From the NCBI GenBank assembly GCA_039196715.1, contig JBCCUP010000009.1, positions 1-64,000 of the forward strand: a stretch of DNA of 64,000 nt, in the 5' to 3' direction. A program made the position numbers and the translations under genes. The notes beneath the pieces were generated by a model that was not told the DNA's origin, did no database searches, and worked only from the letters and a program-made list of their open reading frames with translations. The stretch comes from Pseudomonadota bacterium. GTDB taxonomy: Bacteria > Pseudomonadota > Gammaproteobacteria > CALCKW01. This document shows positions 24,993-41,367 of the stretch, one piece after another. The number at the start of each line of letters is the position of its first letter. Positions within the stretch are counted from its first letter, which is position 1.

Positions 24993-25382
24993 ATGGTTCA
25001 TCTTGACGGCGTACACCACGCGGCGATCATCTGCTCGAACTACGCGCGCACCAAGGCGTTTTATGTCGAGACACTCGGGTTGTCAGTGGTCGCCGAGCAC
25101 TATCGGGCGGATCGGCAATCTCACAAACTCGACCTGGCGCTGCCGGACGGCAGCCAGCTCGAGGTGTTCTCGTTCCCGGACCCACCACCGCGAGCGAGCG
25201 GGCCCGAGGCCTGCGGCTTGCGCCACCTCGCCTTCGTGGTCGATTCGGTGGCGAGCGTGGCCGACAGTCTCACGGCGCGCGGCGTCGAGGTCGAACCGAT
25301 TCGGATCGACGAATTCACCGGCAAGGCTTTCACGTTCTTCACCGACCCCGACGGCTTGCCACTCGAACTCTACGAGCGCTGA
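24993..25382 (+). CDS. VOC-family protein, YaeR/glyoxalase-like
   Basis: 129 residues. DGVHHAAIICSNYARTKAFYVETLGLSVVAEHYR begins the first module (metal ligand His near residue 7), GLRHLAFVVDSVASVADSLTARGVEVEPIR the second, and it ends FTDPDGLPLELYER with the terminal Glu ligand. It matches the small YaeR-type glyoxalase relatives. It lies 34 bases after the amidohydrolase gene and overlaps the 3' end of the convergent membrane-protein gene by 13 bases. Confidence 0.85.
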   Translation: MVHLDGVHHAAIICSNYARTKAFYVETLGLSVVAEHYRADRQSHKLDLALPDGSQLEVFSFPDPPPRASGPEACGLRHLAFVVDSVASVADSLTARGVEVEPIRIDEFTGKAFTFFTDPDGLPLELYER

Positions 25383-26914
25383 CACCCGGGTGGCGTGATC
25401 CGCAACAGCCCGCCCGGGACTGCCTGTGCGCGCTCGGCCCACGCGATGACGCTGGCGTCGACGCGTGCCGTATCGAGCGGGCGAACGGGCGCGTTGATGA
25501 CCAGCGGTGTGTTGCAGTCCAGCGCGAGGCGGTCGATGAAGTCTGACCAGGATTCCTTTTGTGCCGCATAAGGCAGGGTGTAGGGCCTGCGGTTGTGCAG
25601 GTGCGGAAACAGGTAGTTCAGGTGCACCGGGCCGAACACGACGATGCTGCCGTCGGGCAAATCATCAAAACGGGCTCTCACCGCGGCAACCGTGTCGGCG
25701 TACTGTGGTGTGTGCCAGTGACGCAGCACGCCGCGCGGTGTGGTCAAGACGAACGAGAGCACCAACACGGCCGACACGGTCCACACGACAACAGCCCGGG
25801 GTCGGCCCTCTGCCCGGTCACGGAACGTCACGCACAGGGCCGTGAACACCAAAACCGTGGCCGGCGTAAAAAACCGGAACCCGATGTTGTCGAAGTGCGT
25901 GATAGAACGGAGTACCAGGATGGCGGTCGCGTACACGCCCGCGGTCGCGATCAGCACACCAGCCAGGCCGGCCGATCGGCTGTCGAGTGTACGGGTATGC
26001 CGCCGTCGGTACGCAACCGCCACCAGTGTCACGACGATCACCGTCATGGCGGCGCCGAGTACCGCGTTTCGGGGTGAGGAATAGAGGGCGAAGGGGACGG
26101 CCTCGACGAGGACCGCCAGGCTGAACATCGCAGCGAGCGCGGCGGGACTTTCCGGTGCGGCAATGCGTTCTATGCCGGTAAGGTGTCCGGTTTCGCGCAC
26201 GTTGTTGAGCAGATACGCCACCGAGAACACGGCGCTGGCTGCGGTCGCCGTTAGAAGACGAAACGCGTCCCGGCGACGCGATTTCTGGACCAGAAGCAGC
26301 AGGGCCGCCAGGCCCATGATCCCGAGCGAGACCGCGCCGACATACCGCAGCAGAAAAAGCGATACTGCGAGGAGCGCAAGCACGAGACACCGTGCCGGCT
26401 TGGTGTCCGTCAACGCGTCGTGGAGCGTCAAGGTGAAGTGGAGGAACAGCAACGCAAACAGCAGGTCGCTGCTCGAGTAGCTCGCGAGTGTGATCAGGCT
26501 CGCGAACAGGAAGACAGAGGCCACGTGGTGCGCGTCGTCAAACCGCCGTCGCAACGCGAGCAGGCTCAGGCCGATGGCGACGAGGTTGAGCGCCTTGGAG
26601 GCCCAGAAGACCCCGAGGCCCGACACGGCGCTGGCCAGGTAGACTGCGGTCGGGTAGCCCACGGGCCAGGTGGCGAACAGCACATCGGCGTGTCCAGCTT
26701 GCCCGGTGGCGTCGTAGACCGGTGCACGGTAGCCACGCCCGTCGAGCAGCTGTTGCGCCAGGCGCAGGTAGTTCGCGTGGTCACGCGACACCTGCCCGTC
26801 TGGGTCGAATGTCGACAGCAGCAGGACCGACGTCACCACGGCGAGAAAGGTCAGCAGCATCCAGAGGTCCCGTCGGACAGCGGCGTTGTGTATGACAGGC
26901 GATGCGGGGGTCAT
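25370..26914 (-). CDS. polytopic GT-C-type glycosyltransferase, candidate arabinosyltransferase
   Basis: 514 residues with about ten to twelve hydrophobic segments. The first extracytoplasmic loop holds FDPDGQVSRDHANYLRLAQQLLDGRGYR (about 35-60), with acidic residues where GT-C enzymes bind the polyprenyl-phosphate donor. A soluble C-terminal domain (about 400-514) follows. GT-C enzymes transfer sugars from polyprenyl-phosphate donors on the periplasmic face. It is the last gene of the HAD-UbiA/GtrA/DprE1/DprE2 operon, 15 bases after the SDR gene, so it probably uses the arabinose donor made by the others. The acceptor is unknown. No clear Pfam name can be given by eye. Confidence 0.65.
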   Translation of the reverse strand: MTPASPVIHNAAVRRDLWMLLTFLAVVTSVLLLSTFDPDGQVSRDHANYLRLAQQLLDGRGYRAPVYDATGQAGHADVLFATWPVGYPTAVYLASAVSGLGVFWASKALNLVAIGLSLLALRRRFDDAHHVASVFLFASLITLASYSSSDLLFALLFLHFTLTLHDALTDTKPARCLVLALLAVSLFLLRYVGAVSLGIMGLAALLLLVQKSRRRDAFRLLTATAASAVFSVAYLLNNVRETGHLTGIERIAAPESPAALAAMFSLAVLVEAVPFALYSSPRNAVLGAAMTVIVVTLVAVAYRRRHTRTLDSRSAGLAGVLIATAGVYATAILVLRSITHFDNIGFRFFTPATVLVFTALCVTFRDRAEGRPRAVVVWTVSAVLVLSFVLTTPRGVLRHWHTPQYADTVAAVRARFDDLPDGSIVVFGPVHLNYLFPHLHNRRPYTLPYAAQKESWSDFIDRLALDCNTPLVINAPVRPLDTARVDASVIAWAERAQAVPGGLLRITPPGCQRS

Positions 26915-26929
26915 CGGACAGCGGCCGTA

Positions 26930-27667
26930 TCAGAGCGACAAGCGCTTGAACACCGGTTCGGGAATAGCGCGAATCACCAGCATGATCAGCCGCCACACGG
27001 GCAGGGTGTAGAGCGTGTTGCGTTGCTTCGTGACCCCCGTGTAGACCGCTTCGGCCACCTGCGAAGCGTGGGCAGTGAGCGCTGCGGGCAGGTCGAGGTG
27101 CGCGGTCATACGGGTGGCGACGAAGCCAGGCAACACCGTCATCACGTGCACACCGTGCGCGTGCAAGCGGTTCCGCAGGCCCGACAGATAGGCGGTGAAA
27201 CCCGCCTTGGCCGAGCCGTAGATGTAATTCGAGGCGCGCCCGCGCAACCCCGCAACCGAACTCACACCGACCAGCGTGCCGGTGCCCCGCTCGGCGAAAC
27301 GGGACCCGAGCGCTTCCATCAGACGTGCTGGCCCTTCGAAGTTGCTGCGCAGGACGGCTGTGGCAAGGTGTGGATCACGCTCGCTTGAGGCCTGCTCGGG
27401 CATGAAGCCGATCACGCAGACGGCGACATCCGGCAGTGTGGTCAGCCCCTCGAGCAGCTGCACTGGCGCCTCCGGGTTCGTGGCATCACAGTCGAGTAGG
27501 GTGGCCTCGGTGTTGTGGCGAATGGCGAGGTCGGCCGCCGCGGCCTCGAGGCGGGCGGATTTCCGCGCGGCGAGGGTGATCGAATACCCGCGGCTGGCAA
27601 AGGCGTGTGCAATGGCCTGGCCCATGTCCGAGGCGCCCCCCAGGATCAAGACGTTTGGTGTGCTCAC
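26930..27667 (-). CDS. dprE2: SDR oxidoreductase, DprE2-like (2'-keto reductase)
   Basis: 245 residues from a GTG that overlaps the dprE1 stop (GTGA). The nucleotide motif is LGGASDMGQAIAHAFASRGY (about 8-28), the active-site YIYGSAKAG has Tyr and Lys, and GVSSVAGLRG carries the Ser. The C-terminal IMLVIRAIPEPVFKRLSL is hydrophobic with basic residues, as in DprE2, and may hold it at the membrane. With DprE1 it would reduce the 2'-keto form of polyprenyl-phospho-ribose to the arabinose epimer using NADH. Assignment rests on the pairing. Confidence 0.78.
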   Translation of the reverse strand: MSTPNVLILGGASDMGQAIAHAFASRGYSITLAARKSARLEAAAADLAIRHNTEATLLDCDATNPEAPVQLLEGLTTLPDVAVCVIGFMPEQASSERDPHLATAVLRSNFEGPARLMEALGSRFAERGTGTLVGVSSVAGLRGRASNYIYGSAKAGFTAYLSGLRNRLHAHGVHVMTVLPGFVATRMTAHLDLPAALTAHASQVAEAVYTGVTKQRNTLYTLPVWRLIMLVIRAIPEPVFKRLSL

Positions 27668-29007
27668 AACGACAGTCTCTCCGATTGCAAGGATTGGAAA
27701 TGCGCACCGCCACCGCTCGCCCGGCGTCGTGCCTTGAACGCGGCAACCCGCGGGTCCATTGCCTCGAGCTCCGGCGCAGTCAGCAGCGCGTCCTTGGCGA
27801 GGTATACACGGCCCTCGTGTTGCTGCGTGAGGCGATGCAACCGCGCCACCAAGGCGATCGTTTTCGGTGTGGCCGGAAAGTCGAGCGCGAGTGTGTACCC
27901 GGCCATCGGAAAGGCGATGCCCTCGGCTCGCCCGTGGCCCATGCGTTTCAACACCGCCAGGAAGGACGCCGCGCGGGACGCGGCGATGGTGTGCAGCAGT
28001 TCGGCCATCCCGCGCTCGGCCATGTGCAAGGGCAGAACGGCCTGAAACTGCACGAATCCCTGTTTGCCGTACAGGCGGTTCCATCCGCGCACCGCGTCTA
28101 GGGGGTAGAAGTACGCATCCCACCCGGCCAGCCGTGGCGCGGTGTCGCGTTTGCCGCGGTGGAAGTACAGGTGATTGAACGCTGCGATGGAGAGTGGGTT
28201 GAGCAGAGAGACCGGCGGTGTCACGGGAACGTGCAAGCGCCAACGCGGTGACAGGGCGTAGCGGTCCCGCTGTTGCGCCGGTGACAGCGCCGACAGCGGC
28301 GCATGCTCCCCAAAGTACACCAGCGAGCGGCCAAGGGCGTTGCCGGAGCGCACGCAATCGATCCACGCCACGGAATAGGGTGCAGAGGCGTTGGACTCGA
28401 AGGCATCGAATGCGGCCCGGAAGTGTGGTGCGACCACGGTGCGTGTGCGTATCCAACCTGTCTCGACGGCTCGCAGCGCGACGCTGGCCCGCAGGATGAT
28501 ACCCGTGAGGCCCATGCCACCGACCGTGTCGTGGAAGAGCGTGCTGTTCTCGTGGTGCGAGCAACGCACCGTTTCGCCGGTGGGCAGCAGGAGGTCCAAC
28601 CAGTGCACACAGTCGACCATGCTGCCGTCGACGTGGTGGTTCTTGCCGTGCACGTCGGCGGCCAGCATGCCGCCGAGCGTCACGTGTTTGGTCCCCGGCG
28701 TGACCCTCGGGAACCACCCGCGCGGTAGACAGGTCGCGATAATATCTGCAAGACTGACCCCAGCCTCTGCGACCAGCTCGCCGGTGTGGACATCGAAGGC
28801 GATGAATTTGTTCAACCCCGCCGTCAGCAGCGTCTGCTCGGCCGACACGGCGCTGTCACCGTAGGACCGTCCCAGACCGCGTGCGATCAAGGGTCCGGAG
28901 GCGAGCCGGGACGCCGCCTCCGCGGCGGAGGCGCACCGCTGCAGCGTGGTCTTTGCGCCGCCAAACCGCCCCCAACCTTGCAGCTTTGCATCGGCTGGCC
29001 GGCTCAT
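27664..29007 (-). CDS. dprE1: FAD-linked decaprenylphosphoryl-ribose 2'-oxidase homologue DprE1
   Basis: 447 residues. The FAD-binding half has ARGLGRSYGDSAV (42-54) and PGTKHVTLGGMLAADVHGKNHHVDGS (104-129), and the substrate half has GFVQFQAVLP and GIAFPMAGYTLALDFPATP, all characteristic of DprE1 rather than of generic VAO-type oxidases. It oxidises the 2'-OH of polyprenyl-phospho-beta-D-ribofuranose, the first half of the epimerisation to the D-arabinose donor. ATGA overlap with gtrA upstream and GTGA overlap with the SDR downstream indicate tight coupling. In mycobacteria this protein is essential; here it is part of a compact accessory operon. Confidence 0.88.
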   Translation of the reverse strand: MSRPADAKLQGWGRFGGAKTTLQRCASAAEAASRLASGPLIARGLGRSYGDSAVSAEQTLLTAGLNKFIAFDVHTGELVAEAGVSLADIIATCLPRGWFPRVTPGTKHVTLGGMLAADVHGKNHHVDGSMVDCVHWLDLLLPTGETVRCSHHENSTLFHDTVGGMGLTGIILRASVALRAVETGWIRTRTVVAPHFRAAFDAFESNASAPYSVAWIDCVRSGNALGRSLVYFGEHAPLSALSPAQQRDRYALSPRWRLHVPVTPPVSLLNPLSIAAFNHLYFHRGKRDTAPRLAGWDAYFYPLDAVRGWNRLYGKQGFVQFQAVLPLHMAERGMAELLHTIAASRAASFLAVLKRMGHGRAEGIAFPMAGYTLALDFPATPKTIALVARLHRLTQQHEGRVYLAKDALLTAPELEAMDPRVAAFKARRRASGGGAHFQSLQSERLSL

Positions 29008-29438
29008 GTCAACGGCCCGGAGAACACCCAGCGTTTGTCGAGCTGGTACTTGACCACGTAGCCGATCGACAAACCGATGATGGCGCCGAGCTCGCGCATG
29101 GCGTGGTCGTGTGTGCCAAACCAGAAAACCGATTCCGTAGCCCAGAAGATCAGGGTGGTGAAGACACCGGTCAGCGAGTACAACGAAAAGCGGCCCGCAT
29201 GGTGTTGCGGTGTGCGCTCGACCACCTGGAACACCCACCGCGCGTCGAGCGCGTACTTGATCAGGAGGCCCGTGGCCGTGCCGACGACCAGCGCAGTCGT
29301 GAACCACGCGGGCGTGGTGTCCACCGCGAGCACCGCGTTTTGGGCCAACAGGTTGCAGGCAGAGGCGAGTGCGGCAAACACGGTGTAGCGCACCAGTATC
29401 TGGGTCTTGCTCAGCGGCTTACTGGGTTGCATAGACAA
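29004..29438 (-). CDS. GtrA-family membrane protein, candidate lipid-sugar flippase
   Basis: 144 residues (start MSMQPSK; the inner ATG at 29432 also possible). Four hydrophobic helices at about 15-35, 45-62, 82-102 and 115-133, with the GtrA end pattern IGYVVKYQLDKRWVF. GtrA proteins are thought to move polyprenyl-phospho-sugars across the inner membrane. A GtrA homologue is also part of the mycobacterial arabinan locus. It overlaps the stop of the HAD-UbiA gene and the start of dprE1, so all are translated together. Confidence 0.85.
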   Translation of the reverse strand: MSMQPSKPLSKTQILVRYTVFAALASACNLLAQNAVLAVDTTPAWFTTALVVGTATGLLIKYALDARWVFQVVERTPQHHAGRFSLYSLTGVFTTLIFWATESVFWFGTHDHAMRELGAIIGLSIGYVVKYQLDKRWVFSGPLT

Positions 29439-30867
29439 ACAACACCGCGATGAGGGCGAGGCACAGGTAGCTGGTTCGGTCGCGTGCAGAGAACACGATC
29501 GGGTCGTCGTGCATCATCCCGCGGTGGGTCGCCATGATCATGCGCAGCAACCAGTAGAGCAGCACCACACAGGCACCGAGCAGGATGCTCGGTTGCTCGT
29601 AGCGCACGACCACCTCTGGCGATTTCAGGTACAGCGCCATCACCAGAATCGACAGCAAGCCGGAGGTGACGGCGAACTGCGCGATGACCTGCAAGTCCTT
29701 GGTGATGTACCCACGGCCGACGGTGTGTTGTGTGCCACGCTCCTCCGAGTCGAGCAGCTCAGCCTGCCGCTTGATGGCCGCGAGAGACAGAAAAAAGAAG
29801 AGCGAAAAAATCAGTAGCCATTCCGACAAGGGCGTCATGGTTGCGATGCCGCCAGCCAACAACCGTGTGGTGTAGAGCAGCGCCAGCACGATGATGTCCA
29901 CCATCACCATCTTCTTGAGCGACAGCGAGTAGTAGGTCGTCAACGCCAGGTAGAACACGATGATGACCACGAAGGGCCAGTTGATCGTCAGCGCAAGCAG
30001 CAAGCCGATGCCGAGGGCCCCGGCGGACAGGATCGACCCCCGCAGGATGGGCAGCTCGCCGGAGGCGAGCGGGCGGAACCGCTTGCGTGGGTGTGCGCGG
30101 TCGTTGCCGAGGTCGAACAAGTCGTTGATGATGTAGATGCCCGAGGCGATTAGCGAGAACGAGACAAAGGCGAGCACAGCCTCAATCGCGGCAGCGCTCT
30201 CGAATTTGTGTGCCGCCAGAACAGGCACGAAGATCAGCGCGTTCTTCAACCACTGGTGAGGGCGCAACGCCAACAGGGTGCTCTTGAGATCGACGCCGTC
30301 CCCTTCGCTGAGGTGGGTCTTCTCGATGCCGAGCGAATCGACCTGAGCACGCAGCTTGCGCGGTGCGTTGACGGTAATGGCGTGTTCAGAGGCTTGCCAC
30401 ACTTGCAAATCAGGTTTGCTGTCCCCGGCGTAGGCGAAACCGTGTGGAAAGCGGTCGAGGAGAAAGCGCGCCTTGTGTTCCCCTTTGAGGTTGACCGCAT
30501 CCGTCGTGCCCTGCACGTGGTCGAAGAGGCCGAGGTGGGTGGCGATGCGCCTGGCCAGCGTGTCGTGGGTGGCGGTCACCAGCGCGACCTCACCGCCACG
30601 CGACCGCCAGTCCCGGATCAGTTGGAGTACACAGGGGTTGTACGGCAGGGTCGCCACGTCTACCGACGAGCGTTCACCCAGGTAGCGTTTCAAGGCGCTC
30701 TTGCCTGAGAGCAACGCCCGCAGGGCCGCAAGCAGATTCAGGCAGCCGGTTGCCGCGGCGTTCCAAAAGGTCTCGTACAGCATGTCGGACTTGAGCAGCG
30801 TGCCGTCGAGATCGACGACCAGTGTGCGGGGTCCGGACCCGACGCCGAAAGGGGTTGAATTGCGCAT
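29419..30867 (-). CDS. HAD phosphatase-UbiA prenyltransferase fusion (phosphoribosyl-polyprenyl-phosphate synthase)
   Basis: 482 residues. Residues 14-190 are a HAD hydrolase (DLDGTLLKSD at 19-28, VTATHD, KGEHKARFLLDR, AYAGDSKPDL). Residues 200-482 are a UbiA-type integral membrane transferase with seven to nine helices and the acidic motif NDLFDLGNDRAHPRKRF, continued by RPLASGEL. UbiA homologues of this branch attach phosphoribose from PRPP to polyprenyl phosphate. The fused HAD domain could then remove the 5'-phosphate, giving the substrate of DprE1. First gene of the operon, preceded by an AT-rich leader. Confidence 0.86.
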   Translation of the reverse strand: MRNSTPFGVGSGPRTLVVDLDGTLLKSDMLYETFWNAAATGCLNLLAALRALLSGKSALKRYLGERSSVDVATLPYNPCVLQLIRDWRSRGGEVALVTATHDTLARRIATHLGLFDHVQGTTDAVNLKGEHKARFLLDRFPHGFAYAGDSKPDLQVWQASEHAITVNAPRKLRAQVDSLGIEKTHLSEGDGVDLKSTLLALRPHQWLKNALIFVPVLAAHKFESAAAIEAVLAFVSFSLIASGIYIINDLFDLGNDRAHPRKRFRPLASGELPILRGSILSAGALGIGLLLALTINWPFVVIIVFYLALTTYYSLSLKKMVMVDIIVLALLYTTRLLAGGIATMTPLSEWLLIFSLFFFLSLAAIKRQAELLDSEERGTQHTVGRGYITKDLQVIAQFAVTSGLLSILVMALYLKSPEVVVRYEQPSILLGACVVLLYWLLRMIMATHRGMMHDDPIVFSARDRTSYLCLALIAVLFVYATQ

Positions 30868-31172
30868 ATCGCATCCGCTCCAGAAACCGTTTCAGAACAG
30901 TCGCTGTGATGCGCATCCTTGCGATTAGTGGTACAAAAACACCAAAACCTAACGAAACAGGCCCTAAAAACACTGCTGGTTGTTTTCTTTTTGAAACAGG
31001 CAAATTTCGTAAATAACTGTATTATATAAAAATATCGGCTAGTCGAAACAGGTATACACGTCCAGTACACGAAAAACCGTTTCTTCACCAAAAATAACAG
31101 TTGGACTATTGTAATAATTCGTTTGAACGACGACTTACAGATACTGCGCAATTAATGTCGTGAGACGCGCAA
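30868..31172. promoter_or_regulatory. 305-base AT-rich region upstream of the arabinose-donor operon
   Basis: Much lower GC than anything around it, with TATATAAAAATAT near 31022-31035. GAAACAGG occurs three times on the + strand (30954-30961, 30993-31000, 31045-31052) and AAACCGTTTC twice (30884-30893, 31074-31083), the first as the small palindrome GAAAC-C-GTTTC. No gene seen. It separates the AraC-type regulator gene from the operon and presumably holds the operon promoter and binding sites for a regulator or nucleoid protein. Confidence 0.55.
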
Positions 31173-31961
31173 TCAAGGCCGATGCCTGATGTCCCTCGGT
31201 CGGATCCCGAATCGCGAGCGGAACGCGTCGGCAAAATGCGATGGCGTCTTGAAACCGCACCGCTCGGCAATCTCGGAAACCGGCAGGGCGGTGGTGTGCA
31301 GCATCGACAGGCTGTGCTCGAGTTTGGTGCTCAGGAGGATCTTCGCGAAGCCGGTCCCGCGTTGTGCGAGGGTGCGCCGCATGGTTGAGGCGCTCACGTT
31401 CAGGTGCGCTGCGACGGCGTCGGCACGCCAGTCGGCTCGCAGATCGGTTTCGATGATCTGCCGCACTCGCACGATCGGGTCGTTCTCGCTCGGCAACGCG
31501 ATGTGGTATCCGGCTTCGCGCAACCAGATCAGCGGTTCGACGACGCGGCGTGCGTGCAGCGCCGGTGGCAGGTCCGCTCGGGACAGGGTGTCCTGAATCA
31601 GCGGCAAAAGCGTGTGCGGGCGAAGCGGCGTGTTGCGCACGATCTGGATGTCCTGGGCGGTCCGGTTCGACCCGGCGTCCCCGAATGTCGTTGCGACAAG
31701 GTCGTCGGCATAACTCAAGCCCACGGCTCGGTATTGCGCATCGCTGTCCGGTCGGTTCTCCATCGACACCAGCAGGCGCGGCGGAAACACCAACAGGTCA
31801 CCGGCGGAGGCGAGCAGCTCGGCACGCGCTGACTGCACCCGCTTCGTGCCCTGCAGCACGAAGAACAGCGAGGTCTGGCGCACGTAGAGCGCCGAAAAGG
31901 TCGCTGAGGTGGCCTGGGAGATCTCGAAGAGTCTGACGCTGTCGTCGTTGGGGTCACTCAT
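31173..31961 (-). CDS. AraC-family transcriptional regulator
   Basis: 262 residues from the ATG at 31961 (a GTG three codons earlier is possible). The C-terminal ~100 residues hold two helix-turn-helices: RADAVAAHLNVSASTMRRTLAQRGTGF and VSEIAERCGFKTPSHFADAFRSRFGIRPRDIR. The N-terminal ~160 residues are a cupin-like sensor (SLFFVLQGTKRVQSARAELLASAGDLLVFPPRL). It precedes the arabinose-donor operon on the same strand across the AT-rich gap and may control it, although many AraC proteins act on distant targets. Confidence 0.88.
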   Translation of the reverse strand: MSDPNDDSVRLFEISQATSATFSALYVRQTSLFFVLQGTKRVQSARAELLASAGDLLVFPPRLLVSMENRPDSDAQYRAVGLSYADDLVATTFGDAGSNRTAQDIQIVRNTPLRPHTLLPLIQDTLSRADLPPALHARRVVEPLIWLREAGYHIALPSENDPIVRVRQIIETDLRADWRADAVAAHLNVSASTMRRTLAQRGTGFAKILLSTKLEHSLSMLHTTALPVSEIAERCGFKTPSHFADAFRSRFGIRPRDIRHRP

Positions 31962-32163
31962 CGCGCACACGTCTGGGCTTGCGGTCCGGCCGCTGCAGGG
32001 AGTCTAGTGCACCGGAGGGATCGACCGCGTCGCGTCCGCCGAGCGGGTCGCCACCCGATCGTGGCCGAGCCTTGGCCCTCCCCGGTTGCCTGTGCGGGTG
32101 CTATGGTGCAGGGTCGGGACGCGCAACCGGACGCCGTGCGATCATAGCCCCGAGGAGGCAAGT

Positions 32164-33740: not shown

Positions 33741-35270
33741 GTGGTCGAAAAACCGGCAAAGCGACGGCGAAGGAAGGTGAGTGACAGGCCTGTGCTCGGG
33801 ACGAGGGCACCCTATCTGATGCGCGGCCTGACGCCACAGAACGCGCTCAGTGAGGAAGGCCTGGCCACCATCGAGCACAACGCCGACACCATCCTGGCCG
33901 AAATCGGAATGGACTTTGTCGACGACCCGGAGGTTTTGACGACGTTTGCCAACGCCGGTTGCGAGGTTGACGGCACGCGTGTGCGGTTCGAACCGGGTTT
34001 TTGCCGTCGCACGATCTCGGCGACGGCGCCAAAGCAGTTTGTCCAACACGCACGCAACCCCGCAAATTCGGTGCAGATGGGGGGCAACGCGACGGTGCTG
34101 TGTCCGTCTTGGGGGCCGCCGTTCGTGCACGATATCGAGCGGGGTAGACGCTATGCTTCCCTCGCAGATTTCGACACGCTGGTGAAGTTGCACCACAGTT
34201 TGCCGTGGCTGCACCACTCCGGCGGGGTGGTATGTGAACCGGTGGATCTGCCGGCGAACAAGCGCCACCTCGACATGCTCTACAGCCATATCCGTTTCTC
34301 GGATCGGGCCTTCATGGGTGCGTTCATTGGCGCCGAGCGCGCCGGGCACGCGATCGACATGGCGAGAATCGTGTTCGGCGAGGCTTACGTCCAGGACAAT
34401 GCGGTCTTGTATTGTGTCTCGAACACCAATGCGCCGCTGGTTATGGACGCCAACATGTCCGGGGCGCTGAAGACCTACGCCAGGGCGAATCAGCCCGTGG
34501 CGTGTACGCCCTGGGTGCTGACCGGTGCGATGAGCCCGTGCACGGTTGCAGGCACATTGGCTCAAGTGCTGGCGGAAGCGCTCGCGTGTCTCAGCCTGGT
34601 GCAGCTGATCAAACCGGGTGCGCCGTGCCTGATGGGGTCGTTCGCATCCACCCTCTCGATGCAAACGGGTGCGCCCACCTTCGGCAGTCCTGAAGCCGGG
34701 TTGATGGTGCTGGCGGCCGGTCAGTTGGCGAGGCGCCTCGGCGTGCCGTTGCACACGGTCGGGACCCTGACATCGTCCAAGTTGCCTGATGCACAGAGCC
34801 AGCAAGAAGGGACCTGGGGGCTGCTGATGGCGCTGTCTGCCGGGGCGAATGTGGTGAACCACGCGACAGGGTGGCTCGAGGGCGGCTTGGTGACGTCGTT
34901 CGAGAAAACCCTGCTGGACCACGATCTGTGCGGCAAGTTGTGCCGGTTTTTCGAGGGCATCGATCTCAGTGAAAACGCCCAGGCCATGGATGCGATTTCA
35001 GCCACTGGACCGGGCCAGCATTTTCTCGGTTCCGAGCACACCCAGGCCAACTTCATGGACGCGTTGTTTCGGCCGCTTGCCGCTGACGACACCGCCTACG
35101 AACACTGGCTGGATGCGGGCGCCGAAGACGCCGCCACGCGTGCGGGTGGGCTGTGGCGAACGCAACTGGCGTCGTACCGCGACCCCGGCCTGGATGCGGA
35201 TGTCGACGCGGCGTTGCAGGCCTACATCACCAGGCGAAAATCAGAACAACCGGACAGGAACTACTTCTGA
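33741..35270 (+). CDS. MttB-family (trimethylamine methyltransferase-like) protein without pyrrolysine
   Basis: 509 residues from a GTG with GGAGGG upstream. The MttB fold is recognisable (PFVHDIERGRRYASLADFDTLVKL, HSGGVVCEPVDLPANKRHLDMLYSHI, TPWVLTGAMSPCTVAGTLAQVLAEALACLSLVQLIKPGAPC). The reading frame has no internal TAG, so it belongs to the large non-pyrrolysine group that includes glycine-betaine methyltransferase. Such enzymes transfer a methyl group from a quaternary or tertiary amine to a cob(I)alamin protein. No corrinoid-protein gene is adjacent. First gene of the operon; its TGA overlaps the next ATG. Confidence 0.88.
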   Translation: MVEKPAKRRRRKVSDRPVLGTRAPYLMRGLTPQNALSEEGLATIEHNADTILAEIGMDFVDDPEVLTTFANAGCEVDGTRVRFEPGFCRRTISATAPKQFVQHARNPANSVQMGGNATVLCPSWGPPFVHDIERGRRYASLADFDTLVKLHHSLPWLHHSGGVVCEPVDLPANKRHLDMLYSHIRFSDRAFMGAFIGAERAGHAIDMARIVFGEAYVQDNAVLYCVSNTNAPLVMDANMSGALKTYARANQPVACTPWVLTGAMSPCTVAGTLAQVLAEALACLSLVQLIKPGAPCLMGSFASTLSMQTGAPTFGSPEAGLMVLAAGQLARRLGVPLHTVGTLTSSKLPDAQSQQEGTWGLLMALSAGANVVNHATGWLEGGLVTSFEKTLLDHDLCGKLCRFFEGIDLSENAQAMDAISATGPGQHFLGSEHTQANFMDALFRPLAADDTAYEHWLDAGAEDAATRAGGLWRTQLASYRDPGLDADVDAALQAYITRRKSEQPDRNYF

Positions 35271-37654
35271 TGCGCGTGATTGTGGTCGGCGGTGGTGCGG
35301 TGGGGTTGAGTGTGGCCTACCACCTCGCGCTTCGCGGCGGCTGCGATGTGACCCTGCTCGAACGGAACCAACTCAGCTCCGGCACGTCGTGGCACGCGGC
35401 GGGCATTGTGGGGCCCTTGCGTGCGACGCCCGGGATGACGACGTTGGCCAACTACGCGCGTGCCCTCTTTCCGAGACTGGAACGGGAAACGGGGCTCGCG
35501 ACGGGGTACCGTCAGACGGGTGGCTACTGGCTGGCGCGTCATCCGGCTCGGCTCGACGAGCTGCACCGGATTGCCAGTGTGGGACGGGTGTCGGGCTTGT
35601 TGTCACGGGTGGTCGATTGCGAGGAGATCGCCATAGCGGGGCTCGAGCTGTCCGATCACCTGGGTGCGTTGCATGTGCCGGAAGACGGCAACGTGAACCC
35701 GGTGGACTTGTGTCAAGCCTACGCACGCGCCGCGGTGCAACGCGGCGTCAGTGTGCGTGAACACTGTGGTGTGGCGGGGCTCTGCGTCGCTGGCGGGCGC
35801 GTTGTCGGTGTCGAGCTGCTCGACGGCAGTCGGCTCGAGGCCGATGCCGTCGCACTGTGCACCGGCGCGTGGACACGCGAACTTGCCGCATCCTGTGGGG
35901 TTGCTGTGCCACTGCAGGCTGTCGAACACATGTACGTCGTGACCGAGCCCATCGCGGGGCTGCCTGACCCCTTCCCCGTGGTGCGGGACCTGGATTCGGG
36001 CATCTACCTCAAAGGGGATGCGGGCCGACTCGTTCTCGGTGGCTTCGAGCCGAATGCCATTTGTTGGGATCCGTACGGTGCGGCCGGCGACACGCCGTTT
36101 CTTGAACTGCCCGATAACTGGACGCAATTCGAACCTTTTATGGAGGCCGCCCTCGCACTGATGCCGACGTTGGCCGACGTCGGCATTCAGCGATTCATGA
36201 ACGGTCCTGAGAGCTTCACGGCCGATTCGCGGCCCTTGATTGGCCAGTGCAACGAACTCGATCAGCTGTTCGTGGCTGCCGGTATGAATTCCGTGGGCGT
36301 GATGAGCTCGGCCGGTGTGGGGCGCTTGCTCGCAAACTGGATCCTTGACGGGCGCGCCGACACCGATGCCTGGGACGTGGATGTCGCGCGCGTGGACCCG
36401 CTCGTGGCCTCGACGGCGCACATGGCGACGCGCATGCAGGAAGCGGTTGCGGACGTGTTTGCGCTGCATTGGCCTTACAAACAGCCCTCTGCCGGCCGTG
36501 ACCTCAGGCGCTCGGCCCTGCACACACGGTGGGCAGACGCCGGCGCGGTGTTCGGCCTGACTGGCGGTTGGGAGCGGGGATTGTGGTATGCAAAGGTGCC
36601 CGCAGAGCGGCGACTGCCCTACAGCGTGTCGGCTCAGCCCTGGCAAGGTATCGCCGCGCGCGAGGCGGCCGAGTTGTCCACCGGGACAGCGCTGCTGGAT
36701 CTTTCGCCGTTTTGCAAACTGGCGCTGTCGGGTTCAGGCGTGCTCGAGGGGCTCAATTGGCTCTCCTGCGCCGAGCTCGATGTGGCCGTGGGCTGTTCGG
36801 TGTACACGCAATTGCTCAACCGCGAAGGCGGCATCGAGATGGACGTGACCGTCACGCGACGGGGCGGGAATCGCTTCGATATCACCTCGGGCGCGGCGAC
36901 CCGCTGGCGCGACCGTGCCTGGTTGCGGCGTCAGTTGCCCGCGTCGGTCCGCATCGATGATGTCAGCGACGCCTATTGCGTGATCGGCGTCATGGGTGCC
37001 GGCAGTCGAGTGCTGCTTGGCAGCCTGTCGAGCGATTGGCAGCCGGGCGCCTTTGGCAGCGTCTCGGACGCCACGGTCGCCGGTGTGCGGTGCCGCGTGA
37101 CACGGCGCAGTTTCGTCGGGTCGCTCGGCTGGGAGGTGAGCGTGGCAGTGGAAGACGCTGTCACGGTCTTCGACGCGTTGGTGGCCGGCGGGGCGCAGGC
37201 AATGGGCCACTACGCCGTAGACGCGTGCCGAATCGAGAAGGGCTTCAAACACTGGGGGCACGACCTGGGCCCGACACTCACGCCGCTCGAAGCGGATCTT
37301 GGATTCTGTGTTGATTGGCAATCCGACTTTCAGGGCAAGACGGTCCTGGAGGCGCAACGCGACAGTGGCCTCACGCGCCGACTGCAACTGATGGCGGTGG
37401 AGGGTGCGCCGCTGTTGTTGCACGACGAGCCGATCTTCGAGTCCGGCACTTGGGTCGGCGTGTCCACGTCAGGTGCTATCGGTGCGCGTACCGGACTGGC
37501 TCTGTGTTTCGCGTTGCTCGATGTGGCCCCGGGAGAGTCGCGTCGTGACACGGTCCGGCGTCGATTCGAGATTGAGGTGGCCGGTGCGCGCTACGCCGCT
37601 CGCGCCTTGGCCCGCCCACCGTTTGATCCACGTGGTTTGGAGATGCGCGCATGA
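35270..37654 (+). CDS. FAD/GcvT demethylating dehydrogenase 1 (dimethylglycine/sarcosine dehydrogenase type)
   Basis: 794 residues. Residues 1-380 are a DAO-type FAD domain (VIVVGGGAVGLSVAYHLA at 3-20, SGTSWHAAGIVGP near 37-50). The latter motif contains the His that carries covalent FAD in mitochondrial dimethylglycine dehydrogenase. The middle FAO_M-type segment includes FALHWPYKQPSAGRDLRRSAL and GGWERGLWY, and the C-terminal ~380 residues are a GcvT tetrahydrofolate aminomethyltransferase domain (DVTVTRRGGNRFDITSGA, YAVDACRIEKGFKHWGHDL, GARTGLALCFALLDV). It oxidises an N-methyl amine and passes the C1 unit to folate. Coupled at both ends by start-stop overlap. Confidence 0.88.
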   Translation: MRVIVVGGGAVGLSVAYHLALRGGCDVTLLERNQLSSGTSWHAAGIVGPLRATPGMTTLANYARALFPRLERETGLATGYRQTGGYWLARHPARLDELHRIASVGRVSGLLSRVVDCEEIAIAGLELSDHLGALHVPEDGNVNPVDLCQAYARAAVQRGVSVREHCGVAGLCVAGGRVVGVELLDGSRLEADAVALCTGAWTRELAASCGVAVPLQAVEHMYVVTEPIAGLPDPFPVVRDLDSGIYLKGDAGRLVLGGFEPNAICWDPYGAAGDTPFLELPDNWTQFEPFMEAALALMPTLADVGIQRFMNGPESFTADSRPLIGQCNELDQLFVAAGMNSVGVMSSAGVGRLLANWILDGRADTDAWDVDVARVDPLVASTAHMATRMQEAVADVFALHWPYKQPSAGRDLRRSALHTRWADAGAVFGLTGGWERGLWYAKVPAERRLPYSVSAQPWQGIAAREAAELSTGTALLDLSPFCKLALSGSGVLEGLNWLSCAELDVAVGCSVYTQLLNREGGIEMDVTVTRRGGNRFDITSGAATRWRDRAWLRRQLPASVRIDDVSDAYCVIGVMGAGSRVLLGSLSSDWQPGAFGSVSDATVAGVRCRVTRRSFVGSLGWEVSVAVEDAVTVFDALVAGGAQAMGHYAVDACRIEKGFKHWGHDLGPTLTPLEADLGFCVDWQSDFQGKTVLEAQRDSGLTRRLQLMAVEGAPLLLHDEPIFESGTWVGVSTSGAIGARTGLALCFALLDVAPGESRRDTVRRRFEIEVAGARYAARALARPPFDPRGLEMRA

Positions 37655-40053
37655 ACAGGGCACAGGTCGTTGTCATCGGGGGCGGTGCGATGGGTGTGTC
37701 GCTGATCTACCACCTGGTCAAGATGGGCTGGTCCGATGTCGTGCTGGCCGAGAAGAATGACCTCACGCACGGCTCGACCTGGCATGCCGCGGGTCTGTGT
37801 ACCCACTTTGCCCACAACGCCACGATCCAGGCCCTGCGCGCGACTTCGGTACGCCTGTACCGCGACACCTTGCCTGAGGAGACGGGCCAGAGTTGCGGAT
37901 TTCATGCCTGCGGTGCGATGCGCGTGACCACAAACTCGGATCGACTCGACGAGTTTGCCCATGTTGCTGGTCTCTCCGCGTTCACAGGTCACCCACTCGA
38001 GCTTCTGACCCCGGATCGCATCGCCGAGCTCCACCCCCTGGCGCGGCTGGACGGTCTGCTTGGCGGGATACACGAGCCCGATGACGGTCACGTCGACCCC
38101 ACGCTCGCGACCACGGCCATGGCCACAGTTGCCGCGTCCGGCGGGGCGAGCATTCAACGGCAAAACGCGGTGCACGCCATCGTGCGGGAGTCCGGCAAGT
38201 GGCGCGTTGAGACGGAGCGGGGAACCATTGAAACGCGGCATGTGGTCAACGCCGCTGGCACGTGGGGATGGGAAGTCGGCCACATGATGGGTCTCAACAT
38301 TCCGTCGGTGCCGGTATTGCATCAATACCTCGTGACCGAGCGCGTCGACGCCGTTTCAGAGCGTCAAGCGGCTGGGCTGGATGAACTGCCTATCATCCGT
38401 GACCCCGAGGAGAGCTGGTACGTCCGCCAGGAACGCGATGGGCTGATTCTCGGTCCCTACGAGACAGCGGCCCAGGTCTGGTCGGTTGACGGCTGCCCGC
38501 CCGACTTCGGCGCCGATTTGCTGCCGCCCGAACTCGATCGGGTTGAGCACATCATCGACGCAGCGCTGGCCCGGATTCCGGCCCTGGGCACGGCGGGTGT
38601 TCGGACGGTGATCAACGGGCCAATCACCTTCACACCCGATGCGAACCCGCTGATCGGCCCGGCCCATGGTCTTGAGAACGCGTGGCTGCTGACCGGGTCG
38701 TCCATGGGTGTGATGGAAGGCGGTGGTGCGGGCTGGTTTCTCGCGCACTGGATGACCCACGGTGCGCCGCCGATGGACGCCCTCGCCGTCGACAGTCGCC
38801 GATTCGGGGCCTGGGCGGACCGAGACTACCGTGTGGCCAAGGCGATCGAGTGCTTCGGCTTGCAATTTGGGGTGCACTATCCCTACGAGGAGCGACCTGC
38901 CGCGCGCGATCGGCGACTGACACCGCTGCATGCAGCCATGAAGGCACGCGGCGCGGTCATGGGCTGTGTGCACGGTTGGGAACGCCCGAACGGGTTCACG
39001 GCAGGCGGCGTGGATCCGTATCGGCCGCACTTTCGCGACCGGGGCTGGCGTGCCGTGGTCGCGCGCGAGGCCGAGGCGGTGTCCGAACGGGTTGCGCTGG
39101 CTGACGTGTCGGTCTTCGCCAAGTTCGAGGTTAGCGGCGTAGAAACAGAGGCCTTTCTCGATGAGTTGGGCGCCAATGCCCCCCCGCGGCCAGGGCGCGT
39201 CGGGCTGATTCACGCACTGACACCGGCCGGTGGGGTCGCGTCTGAATTCACCGTCGCGCGCCTGACGCCAGACCTGGCCTACCTCACCGCTGCTGCAGCG
39301 GCCGAGGAACACGACGCGGATCGGTTGATGGCGCATGCCAGCACCCGCACTGTCGAGTTGCGGAACGTCACCGTCGAGTGGGCCGTGATCGGTGTCATGG
39401 GGCCCTTGTCGCGCAGGCTGATCGCACGGCTCACCGACGTGGACCTCGAAACCGGCTTTCCGTGGTTGACCGTGCAGTGCATCGCGGTGGCGGACATCCC
39501 GGTGCGTGCGCTTCGGGTGTCGTACCTCGGCGAACTGGGCTGGGAGCTGCACGTGCGCGCCGACGAGGCCGAGCGGCTGTTGCGGGCGCTCGAGCGCGCG
39601 GGGGAGGGGCTCGGGCTAGGCTACTACGGTGCACACGCCGCCAATGCACTGCGGCTCGAGAAGGGCTACCGAGCGTGGGGCGCGGACCTGACAACGGAGC
39701 GAACACCGCTTGAAGCGGGATTGCAGCGTTTCGTGAAAGTCGACGGTCGTGGGTTTGTCGGGCGTGAGGCGATGCTCTCGCGTGTCGACCCCTGGGACAT
39801 GGTCTTGTTGGAGATCGACATCAGCGACACCGAGCCCTTTTACACCCACACGGTCTGGCAGCACGGGACACCCGTGGGCGTGATCACCTCCGCGGCGCAC
39901 GGCCCCCGTACAGGGAAAACGCTGGCACTCGCCTATCTGCGCGAACCTTCCGCCCGGGCTGGACTGAGCGTGGATGTGCTCGGCGCACGCTATGCCGCGC
40001 GCGTGCTCGACCAGGTGCCGTACGACCCCGCCAACCACCGACTCACGGGATAG
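37651..40053 (+). CDS. FAD/GcvT demethylating dehydrogenase 2, paralogue of the preceding gene
   Basis: 800 residues with the same architecture: FAD motif VVIGGGAMGVSLIYHLVKMG (about 6-25), THGSTWHAAGLCTH with the covalent-FAD-type His, HYPYEERPAARDRRLTPLH and HGWERPNGF in the middle, and the GcvT domain ending YGAHAANALRLEKGYRAWGADLTTERTPLEAG. It diverges strongly from its neighbour outside these motifs, as expected if the two act on different substrates, for example dimethyl and monomethyl amines. ATGA overlap with the preceding gene and 6 bases before the aminotransferase gene. Confidence 0.88.
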   Translation: MNRAQVVVIGGGAMGVSLIYHLVKMGWSDVVLAEKNDLTHGSTWHAAGLCTHFAHNATIQALRATSVRLYRDTLPEETGQSCGFHACGAMRVTTNSDRLDEFAHVAGLSAFTGHPLELLTPDRIAELHPLARLDGLLGGIHEPDDGHVDPTLATTAMATVAASGGASIQRQNAVHAIVRESGKWRVETERGTIETRHVVNAAGTWGWEVGHMMGLNIPSVPVLHQYLVTERVDAVSERQAAGLDELPIIRDPEESWYVRQERDGLILGPYETAAQVWSVDGCPPDFGADLLPPELDRVEHIIDAALARIPALGTAGVRTVINGPITFTPDANPLIGPAHGLENAWLLTGSSMGVMEGGGAGWFLAHWMTHGAPPMDALAVDSRRFGAWADRDYRVAKAIECFGLQFGVHYPYEERPAARDRRLTPLHAAMKARGAVMGCVHGWERPNGFTAGGVDPYRPHFRDRGWRAVVAREAEAVSERVALADVSVFAKFEVSGVETEAFLDELGANAPPRPGRVGLIHALTPAGGVASEFTVARLTPDLAYLTAAAAAEEHDADRLMAHASTRTVELRNVTVEWAVIGVMGPLSRRLIARLTDVDLETGFPWLTVQCIAVADIPVRALRVSYLGELGWELHVRADEAERLLRALERAGEGLGLGYYGAHAANALRLEKGYRAWGADLTTERTPLEAGLQRFVKVDGRGFVGREAMLSRVDPWDMVLLEIDISDTEPFYTHTVWQHGTPVGVITSAAHGPRTGKTLALAYLREPSARAGLSVDVLGARYAARVLDQVPYDPANHRLTG

Positions 40054-40059
40054 AACAGG

Positions 40060-41367
40060 ATGAACGACGCAACGCCAGAACTGGATTGGTCACTCTCGGG
40101 CACGGCGGCGCGGCGCGAACGCTACTACGCGTCCAGCCAGCGCAAGTTCGTTCCCTTTGCCGACCCCCTGGTGTTTCAACGTGGCCAGGGGCAGTACCTC
40201 TGGGACAACGAAGACGCGCGGTACACCGACCTGCTCGGTATGAACGTGTGCATCTCGGTGGGACACTCGCACCCGCGCGTGGTCGGGGCTGCGATGCAAC
40301 AAGCGCAAGACCTGACCCATTGCACCACCATGTTCTATCACCCCGCGCCGGCCCACCTGGCTGAAGAGTTGGCTGCGCGCATGCCGGTCGGGCACGAGTG
40401 GGTCGTGCACTTCACCAACTCCGGCGCCGAGGCGATTGACCTCGCTATGACCATGGCACGCACGTACACCGGCCACCTCGACCTGCTGGCGCTGCGCACG
40501 GCTTACCACGGCCCGACCGCGGCGGCGCAATCGGTCACCGGCATTGCTTCGTGGCGTCACCCGGGGATGCCGGGTCACGTGAGTTTTGTTGCCGACCCCA
40601 ATCAATACCGCGGCGTGTTCGGTGCGACAACGGAGCCGTACCTCGATGAGATCGAGCGCGCCATCGCCACGTCCACGCAAGGCCAGGTCGCCGGCATGCT
40701 CATCGAAAGCGTGCAGGGTTACGGTGGCATCGTCGAGATGCCACCGGGTTACCTCTCCGGTGCTGCCGAGCGGGTGCGCGCGGCGGGAGGACTCTACATC
40801 GCCGATGAAGTGCAATCGGGTTTCGGGCGCACCGGGGACCACTTCTGGGGATTCCAGGCCGATGGGGTGGTGCCTGACATCGTGGTCATGGCCAAGGGCC
40901 TCGGCAACGGCTTCCCGATCGGCGCCGTGGTCGCGCGCAAGGCCATTGCCGCACCCATGGCCGAGAAGTTTCTGTTTCACACCTACGGCGCCAACCCGAC
41001 CAGCTGCGCGGCGGCACGCGCCGTGTTGCAGGTGCTCGACGACGAGGGCTTGCAAGCCAACGCGCGGACCGTCGGGTCGGCGTTGCTTGCTCGGCTTCAT
41101 GAGCTCAAGGCGCGTCACGCCGCGATCGGCGACGTGCGGGGACGGGGGTTGATGCTAGCGATTGAGATCGTGTCGGACCGGGAGACCAAAGCCCCCGATC
41201 CCGCTGCCACGGCCAGGGTGTTCGAGCGCTGCCGGGAGCACCGCATCATCCTGTCGAAATCCGGGCCGACGCAATCGGTGTTGAGAATGGTGCCGCCCTT
41301 GTGTTTGACGCTGGACGACGTGGATGCTGTCGCTGACGCGCTGGATCGGGCCTTCTCCGAGACGTGA
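40060..41367 (+). CDS. class III (omega-type) aminotransferase
   Basis: 435 residues, PLP-dependent fold type I, AGXT2/omega-aminotransferase group. GVHFTN-type motif as VVHFTNSGAEAIDLAM (about 113-128), YIADEVQSGFGRTGDHFWGF with the PLP-ring Asp (about 247-266), the Schiff-base Lys in VVMAKGLGNGFPIGAVV (about 276-292), and HTYGANPTSCAAARAVL. These enzymes act on a primary amine far from, or in place of, the alpha position: beta-alanine, GABA, 3-aminoisobutyrate, or the alanine/glyoxylate pair. Last gene of the demethylation operon, where it would receive the fully demethylated amine. Confidence 0.88.
   Translation: MNDATPELDWSLSGTAARRERYYASSQRKFVPFADPLVFQRGQGQYLWDNEDARYTDLLGMNVCISVGHSHPRVVGAAMQQAQDLTHCTTMFYHPAPAHLAEELAARMPVGHEWVVHFTNSGAEAIDLAMTMARTYTGHLDLLALRTAYHGPTAAAQSVTGIASWRHPGMPGHVSFVADPNQYRGVFGATTEPYLDEIERAIATSTQGQVAGMLIESVQGYGGIVEMPPGYLSGAAERVRAAGGLYIADEVQSGFGRTGDHFWGFQADGVVPDIVVMAKGLGNGFPIGAVVARKAIAAPMAEKFLFHTYGANPTSCAAARAVLQVLDDEGLQANARTVGSALLARLHELKARHAAIGDVRGRGLMLAIEIVSDRETKAPDPAATARVFERCREHRIILSKSGPTQSVLRMVPPLCLTLDDVDAVADALDRAFSET

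Follow-up and report, generated by a model that had tools for sequence, protein, structure and literature searches.

The window analysed here is a 64,000-nucleotide (nt) stretch of contig JBCCUP010000009.1 from a gammaproteobacterium, and its minus strand carries, from 30867 down to 25370, five intact genes that overlap or nearly touch and contain no stops within their frames. The first (29419-30867) encodes a HAD-UbiA fusion of 482 amino acids, in which an N-terminal HAD phosphatase precedes a polyprenyl-phosphate 5-phosphoribosyltransferase. It is followed by a small GtrA-family membrane protein (29004-29432), a proposed flippase for a lipid-linked sugar, by a DprE1-like FAD-dependent polyprenylphosphoryl-ribose 2'-oxidase identified from family and PDB matches (27664-29007), and by a DprE2-like SDR reductase with a GTG start (26930-27667). 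The last gene (25370-26914) encodes a membrane glycosyltransferase of 514 amino acids with a GT-C fold, which we propose to be a D-arabinofuranosyltransferase on the basis of fold matches to an AlphaFold2 model. The first four genes overlap successively by 14, 4 and 4 nt, and a gap of 15 nt separates the fourth from the GT-C gene. An earlier note on this DNA had listed these five packed genes, and family searches and fold matches bore out both its coordinates and its identifications. As judged from the sequence, the operon is probably functional, and we consider it very likely to be a self-contained cassette for the transfer of D-arabinofuranose (D-Araf), the sugar being assigned as D-arabinose by analogy.

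Donor-synthesis enzymes and the predicted pathway

The HAD-UbiA protein matched NCBIfam PRK08238 with 591 bits (cut-off 351) as well as the Pfam UbiA and HAD families, and in a phmmer search of PDB sequences it matched the Mycobacterium tuberculosis decaprenyl-phosphate phosphoribosyltransferase (DPPR synthase; 8j8j) at an E-value of 2.9e-31. All four HAD motifs are present in the part fused to UbiA (DLDGT-19, VTA-97, K-128 and GDSKPD-148), by which the domain is a predicted 5'-phosphatase, and the NDxxDxxxDxxHPxKxxRP box of the UbiA part is intact (NDLFDLGNDRAHPRKRFRP-248). The GtrA protein matched Pfam PF04138 (38 bits, cut-off 26.1) and NF037976 (147 bits). The DprE1-like protein matched the DprE1 structure 4aut at 5.5e-65 and retains the FAD domain and the active-site Lys405, a residue kept in 94 of 95 aligned cassette enzymes. 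The DprE2-like reductase matched PRK07102 (315 bits, cut-off 267), with the glycine motif GGASDMG-10, Ser136/137 and the YxxxK motif YGSAK-150.

In the predicted pathway, the UbiA domain would transfer 5-phosphoribose from phosphoribosyl pyrophosphate (PRPP) to a polyprenyl phosphate, expected to be undecaprenyl phosphate, and the fused HAD domain would remove the 5'-phosphate. The DprE1-like enzyme would then oxidise C2' and the DprE2-like enzyme would reduce it, yielding polyprenyl-phospho-D-arabinofuranose; GtrA would carry this lipid across to the periplasmic side, where the GT-C protein would attach its sugar to a glycan of the envelope or to a secreted molecule. Every step from PRPP to transferred D-Araf thus has a candidate with intact motifs, from which we infer the activities.

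Relation to noeCNHOP and other pentofuranose systems

In searches of plasmids, the same cassette turned up on the symbiosis plasmids of bacteria that nodulate Sesbania. Its genes in Agrobacterium pusense / Rhizobium sp. IRBG74 run UbiA-GtrA-DprE1-DprE2-hypothetical, with nodAB coming next; this is the noeCNHOP operon (noeCHOP in Azorhizobium caulinodans). Nod factors are no longer arabinosylated when noeP is deleted, and are less so when noeN is deleted (PMC5080398). The window shares with this operon the order UbiA-GtrA-DprE1-DprE2-membrane transferase, and its proteins are 51% (UbiA domain), 43% (GtrA, NoeN), 52% (DprE1, noeH position) and 56% (DprE2, noeO position) identical to those of IRBG74. 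The two differ in that the window keeps the HAD domain missing from the symbiosis-plasmid NoeC, has no nod genes, and ends in a GT-C protein unrelated to NoeP by sequence. A Nod-factor operon proper was considered and rejected, the tail protein falling outside the NoeP transferase family (hhalign probability 0.2%).

The comparison also touches the assignment of NoeN itself. The IRBG74 NoeN (L046:5579-6001; named by its place as the second noeCNHOP gene) is a GtrA-family membrane protein by Pfam, and had been proposed as the DPPR 5'-phosphatase (PMC5080398); it is more likely a flippase than a phosphatase. The HAD domain that the window and most cassettes possess is missing from the symbiosis-plasmid NoeC (L046:4419-5582), so that the Nod-factor pathway seems so far to draw its phosphatase from some gene other than noeN or noeC.

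The mycobacterial decaprenylphosphoryl-D-arabinose pathway (Rv3806c, Rv3807c, Rv3789, DprE1, DprE2, AftA/Emb) shares homologous UbiA, DprE1 and DprE2 proteins and a small GtrA-type exporter with the window, and the order GtrA-DprE1-DprE2-GT-C is presumably that of Rv3789-Rv3792. The window operon differs in having a HAD phosphatase instead of Rv3807c, in its single-operon form, in an alanine at the position of the benzothiazinone-reactive cysteine, and in a GT-C protein without sequence match to the solved Emb/Aft enzymes. The earlier claim of a complete arabinose-donor route holds as far as families, motifs, gene order and homology to noeCNHOP are concerned, but its parallel with the mycobacterial pathway needs correcting, because alphaproteobacterial and Nod-factor cassettes are closer. 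The noeCNHOP operon, the nearest relative that has been studied by experiment, is the stronger functional anchor.

A general three-component scheme for pentofuranose transfer has been described by Kelly et al. (2024), in which a Citrobacter HAD-UbiA protein makes polyprenyl-P-ribofuranose and DprE1/E2 homologues occur with Araf-containing glycans (PMC11127046). A lipid-donor synthase, an exporter and a GT-C protein likewise stand together in the window, the exporter role of GtrA being a predicted one. The systems of Citrobacter youngae O1/O2 share the N-terminal HAD-UbiA fusion, an exporter and a GT-C transferase, with DprE1/E2 in the Araf versions, whereas the window has GtrA instead of a MATE exporter and lies outside any O-antigen cluster. 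The pilin D-Araf pathway of Pseudomonas aeruginosa PA7 shares PPPRS, DprE1/E2-type donor synthesis and transfer of D-Araf outside the cytoplasm; it differs in using a separate phosphatase without the HAD fusion (PMC11127046), and no link to pilin was found for the window operon. The window operon is thus a member of the DprE1/E2 (Araf) branch of the three-component systems, built like noeCNHOP with the HAD domain kept and a different GT-C protein.

Cassettes of this kind have been described before and occur commonly among Gram-negative bacteria. At least 584 DprE1 relatives were found in genome contigs, and the locus counts given here rest on 80 named loci from among them, in which gene lengths are approximate because the open reading frame (ORF) caller chooses overlong ORFs in GC-rich loci. 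DprE1 and DprE2 are adjacent in 72 of the 80, the fused HAD-UbiA is present in 53 and GtrA in 58. The order HAD-UbiA-GtrA-DprE1-DprE2 recurs in 40/80 loci from many taxa, indicating that the arrangement is not due to chance. Among the sampled Gammaproteobacteria, about 68 of 369 genomes have a strong DprE1 homologue (E < 1e-50, counted by eye). The sampled class is recognised as Gammaproteobacteria from one of its genomes, G193, whose DprE1 is identical to the one of Thiomicrorhabdus sp. 6S3-12.

In a tree of 95 DprE1 sequences, whose bootstrap was not fully settled, the window protein forms a pair with that of a congener, G003 (100/98). It lies inside a clade of 42 sequences (99/92) that are mostly alphaproteobacterial, and apart from Pseudomonas, Thiothrix and the majority of gammaproteobacteria. 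In the congener the order of the five genes is the same, but they stand elsewhere in its genome and share no flanking genes with the window; in the other two congeners sampled, one of them only 79% complete, searches found neither the tail GT-C protein nor a DprE1 of comparable strength. As the window DprE1 nests among alphaproteobacterial ones and the congener has the cassette at another site, the simplest reading of the sequences is that the cassette was probably acquired laterally. The same mostly alphaproteobacterial clade includes proteobacterial-type cassettes from Nocardioides marinus, an Actinobacteria metagenome-assembled genome (MAG) and Thermosynechococcus (L081, L052 and L074), suggesting either cross-phylum transfer or binning errors. 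One contig labelled as a Klebsiella pneumoniae MAG (L125) has a long-branched DprE1 that groups with an uncultured Pseudomonadales sequence, and is possibly a mislabelled or contaminated bin.

The tail GT-C protein and competing explanations

The product of the last gene matched no Pfam family and no PDB sequence, the solved Emb/Aft enzymes included, and a search of viral contigs returned nothing. Its AlphaFold2 model, built from six sequences, was moderate (pTM 0.71, pLDDT 66), and the top 22 PDB fold matches were all GT-C proteins (ArnT, OST, Pmt, EmbA/EmbB, AftA and PglB). Among the positions that do not vary in six distant relatives are D45, Y49, W83-P84, R190-Y191 and R347; the early aspartate, following transmembrane helix 1, sits at the position of the proposed catalytic base of GT-C enzymes. 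In the class and phylum samples, the only strong match was the protein of congener G003; four further matches, LA_3751-like, were weak. This protein, with the variety of such tails, is the one part of the system that could be new, a close relative having been found in a single congener among the sampled genomes.

The tails of other cassettes are diverse. About 60 polytopic neighbours fell into 32 sequence clusters without detectable mutual similarity, and of ten that were sampled, three matched GT87 or PMT_2 and seven matched nothing in Pfam. We tentatively propose, at somewhat less than even confidence, that the tail protein represents a new D-arabinofuranosyltransferase family with no sequence relation to either NoeP or the enzymes of mycobacteria, and that a conserved donor cassette moves from one bacterium to another and is combined with interchangeable, mutually unrelated GT-C tails that set the acceptor. 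As a general rule, such interchangeability is a hypothesis drawn from one sample of named loci.

Several results weigh against reading the operon as a dedicated D-arabinofuranosylation cassette. The DprE1-like protein scores below the cut-off of the equivalog model NF053785 (361 vs 500 bits) and the DprE2-like protein below that of NF053786 (200 vs 250 bits), both models being named for decaprenyl enzymes; the two proteins are therefore classed as homologues, and their product is assigned via the noe operon and not from curated models. These scores, together with the HAD-UbiA entry point that ribose and xylose versions of the three-component systems share (Kelly et al., PMC11127046), would suit a product such as ribofuranose or xylofuranose, made by an oxidoreductase pair acting unlike DprE1/E2. 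The adjacency of the DprE1 and DprE2 homologues, their 52% and 56% identity to proteins of a D-arabinosylation operon and the near-universal active-site lysine make another pentofuranose highly improbable. On the side of the transferase, the lack of a detectable relation to NoeP counts against the cassette reading, and no characterised relative of the tail protein was found in searches.

The donor half might, then, make polyprenyl-P-D-Araf while the GT-C protein transfers something else or lies here by chance, the true arabinosyltransferase being elsewhere, as TfpW adjoins pilA in Pseudomonas. The missing relation to NoeP would fit this arrangement, as would the fact that tail genes differ among cassettes and are absent from many. 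Against it stand the 15-nt gap, the shared strand and the GT-C fold, the five-gene order retained in congener G003 at another genome site, and an excess of polytopic ORFs directly after DprE2 (22/69 loci vs 22/576 control positions), although the control consists of overlapping six-frame ORFs and is crude, so that the enrichment is only indicative. We regard this explanation as unlikely, and favour a GT-C protein that acts with the donor half as part of one D-arabinofuranosylation cassette.

That cassette would also be compatible with type IV pilin as the acceptor, as established for P. aeruginosa strains with D-Araf pili (PMC10115798), and the genome does contain five pilin-domain genes. All five are on other contigs, however, no pilin gene was found near the operon and its neighbours are unrelated to pilin, so the earlier suggestion of pilin as a D-arabinose carrier found no support in the gene context and pilin is an unlikely acceptor. 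The best-scoring pilin gene adjoins a different glycan cluster (L144; G000 contig 12, 66000-79204), in which a GtrA protein, a GT2 protein, a 767-amino-acid polytopic protein and a DegT-type aminotransferase lie within a few kb of the type IV pilin gene. Of this cluster and the window operon, the cluster is the more promising candidate for glycosylating pilin.

Surroundings of the operon and the inhibitor-binding residue

Upstream of the operon on the same strand lies an AT-rich leader of 305 bp (30868-31172; 40% GC vs 65% for the window), where GC content over 300 bp is at its lowest in the 64 kb, and which is likely, from its composition, to be a promoter or regulatory region. A promoter scan of the leader did not find a sigma-70 consensus, and terminator-like sites were no commoner than in shuffled sequences. 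The leader contains three CGAAACAGG-like repeats (30953, 30992 and 31044) and two copies of AAACCGTTTC, which are possible regulator sites. Next to it, an AraC-family regulator (31173-31970, minus strand; PF12833, 62.5 bits) is a candidate for a regulatory link to the operon. The other neighbours are a VOC protein and genes of methylamine-type metabolism; at 33741-41367, an MttB-family methyltransferase, two DAO-GcvT fusion dehydrogenases and a class III aminotransferase form a run that looks like a catabolic cluster for methylamines or quaternary amines.

Covalent DprE1 inhibitors act via Cys387, and its replacement by serine or alanine leads to resistance (PMC4608729). The equivalent residue is Ala374 in the window DprE1, and among the 95 cassette enzymes it is alanine in 91, threonine in four and cysteine in none, so covalent inhibitors should not act on the window enzyme by their usual mechanism. 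Insensitivity to benzothiazinones would consequently say nothing about function, and the inhibitor test proposed in the earlier note would be uninformative.

D-Arabinofuranose is often regarded as a hallmark of mycobacteria, and DprE1 as a target for drugs against them. Together with its relatives, the operon described here points to a donor pathway that is widespread in Gram-negative bacteria, where it takes a compact one-operon form and its DprE1 has no drug-reactive cysteine. Should the GT-C protein prove to be an arabinosyltransferase, a new sequence family of transferases would be gained; the variable tails of the related cassettes provide a list of candidate acceptor-specific enzymes.

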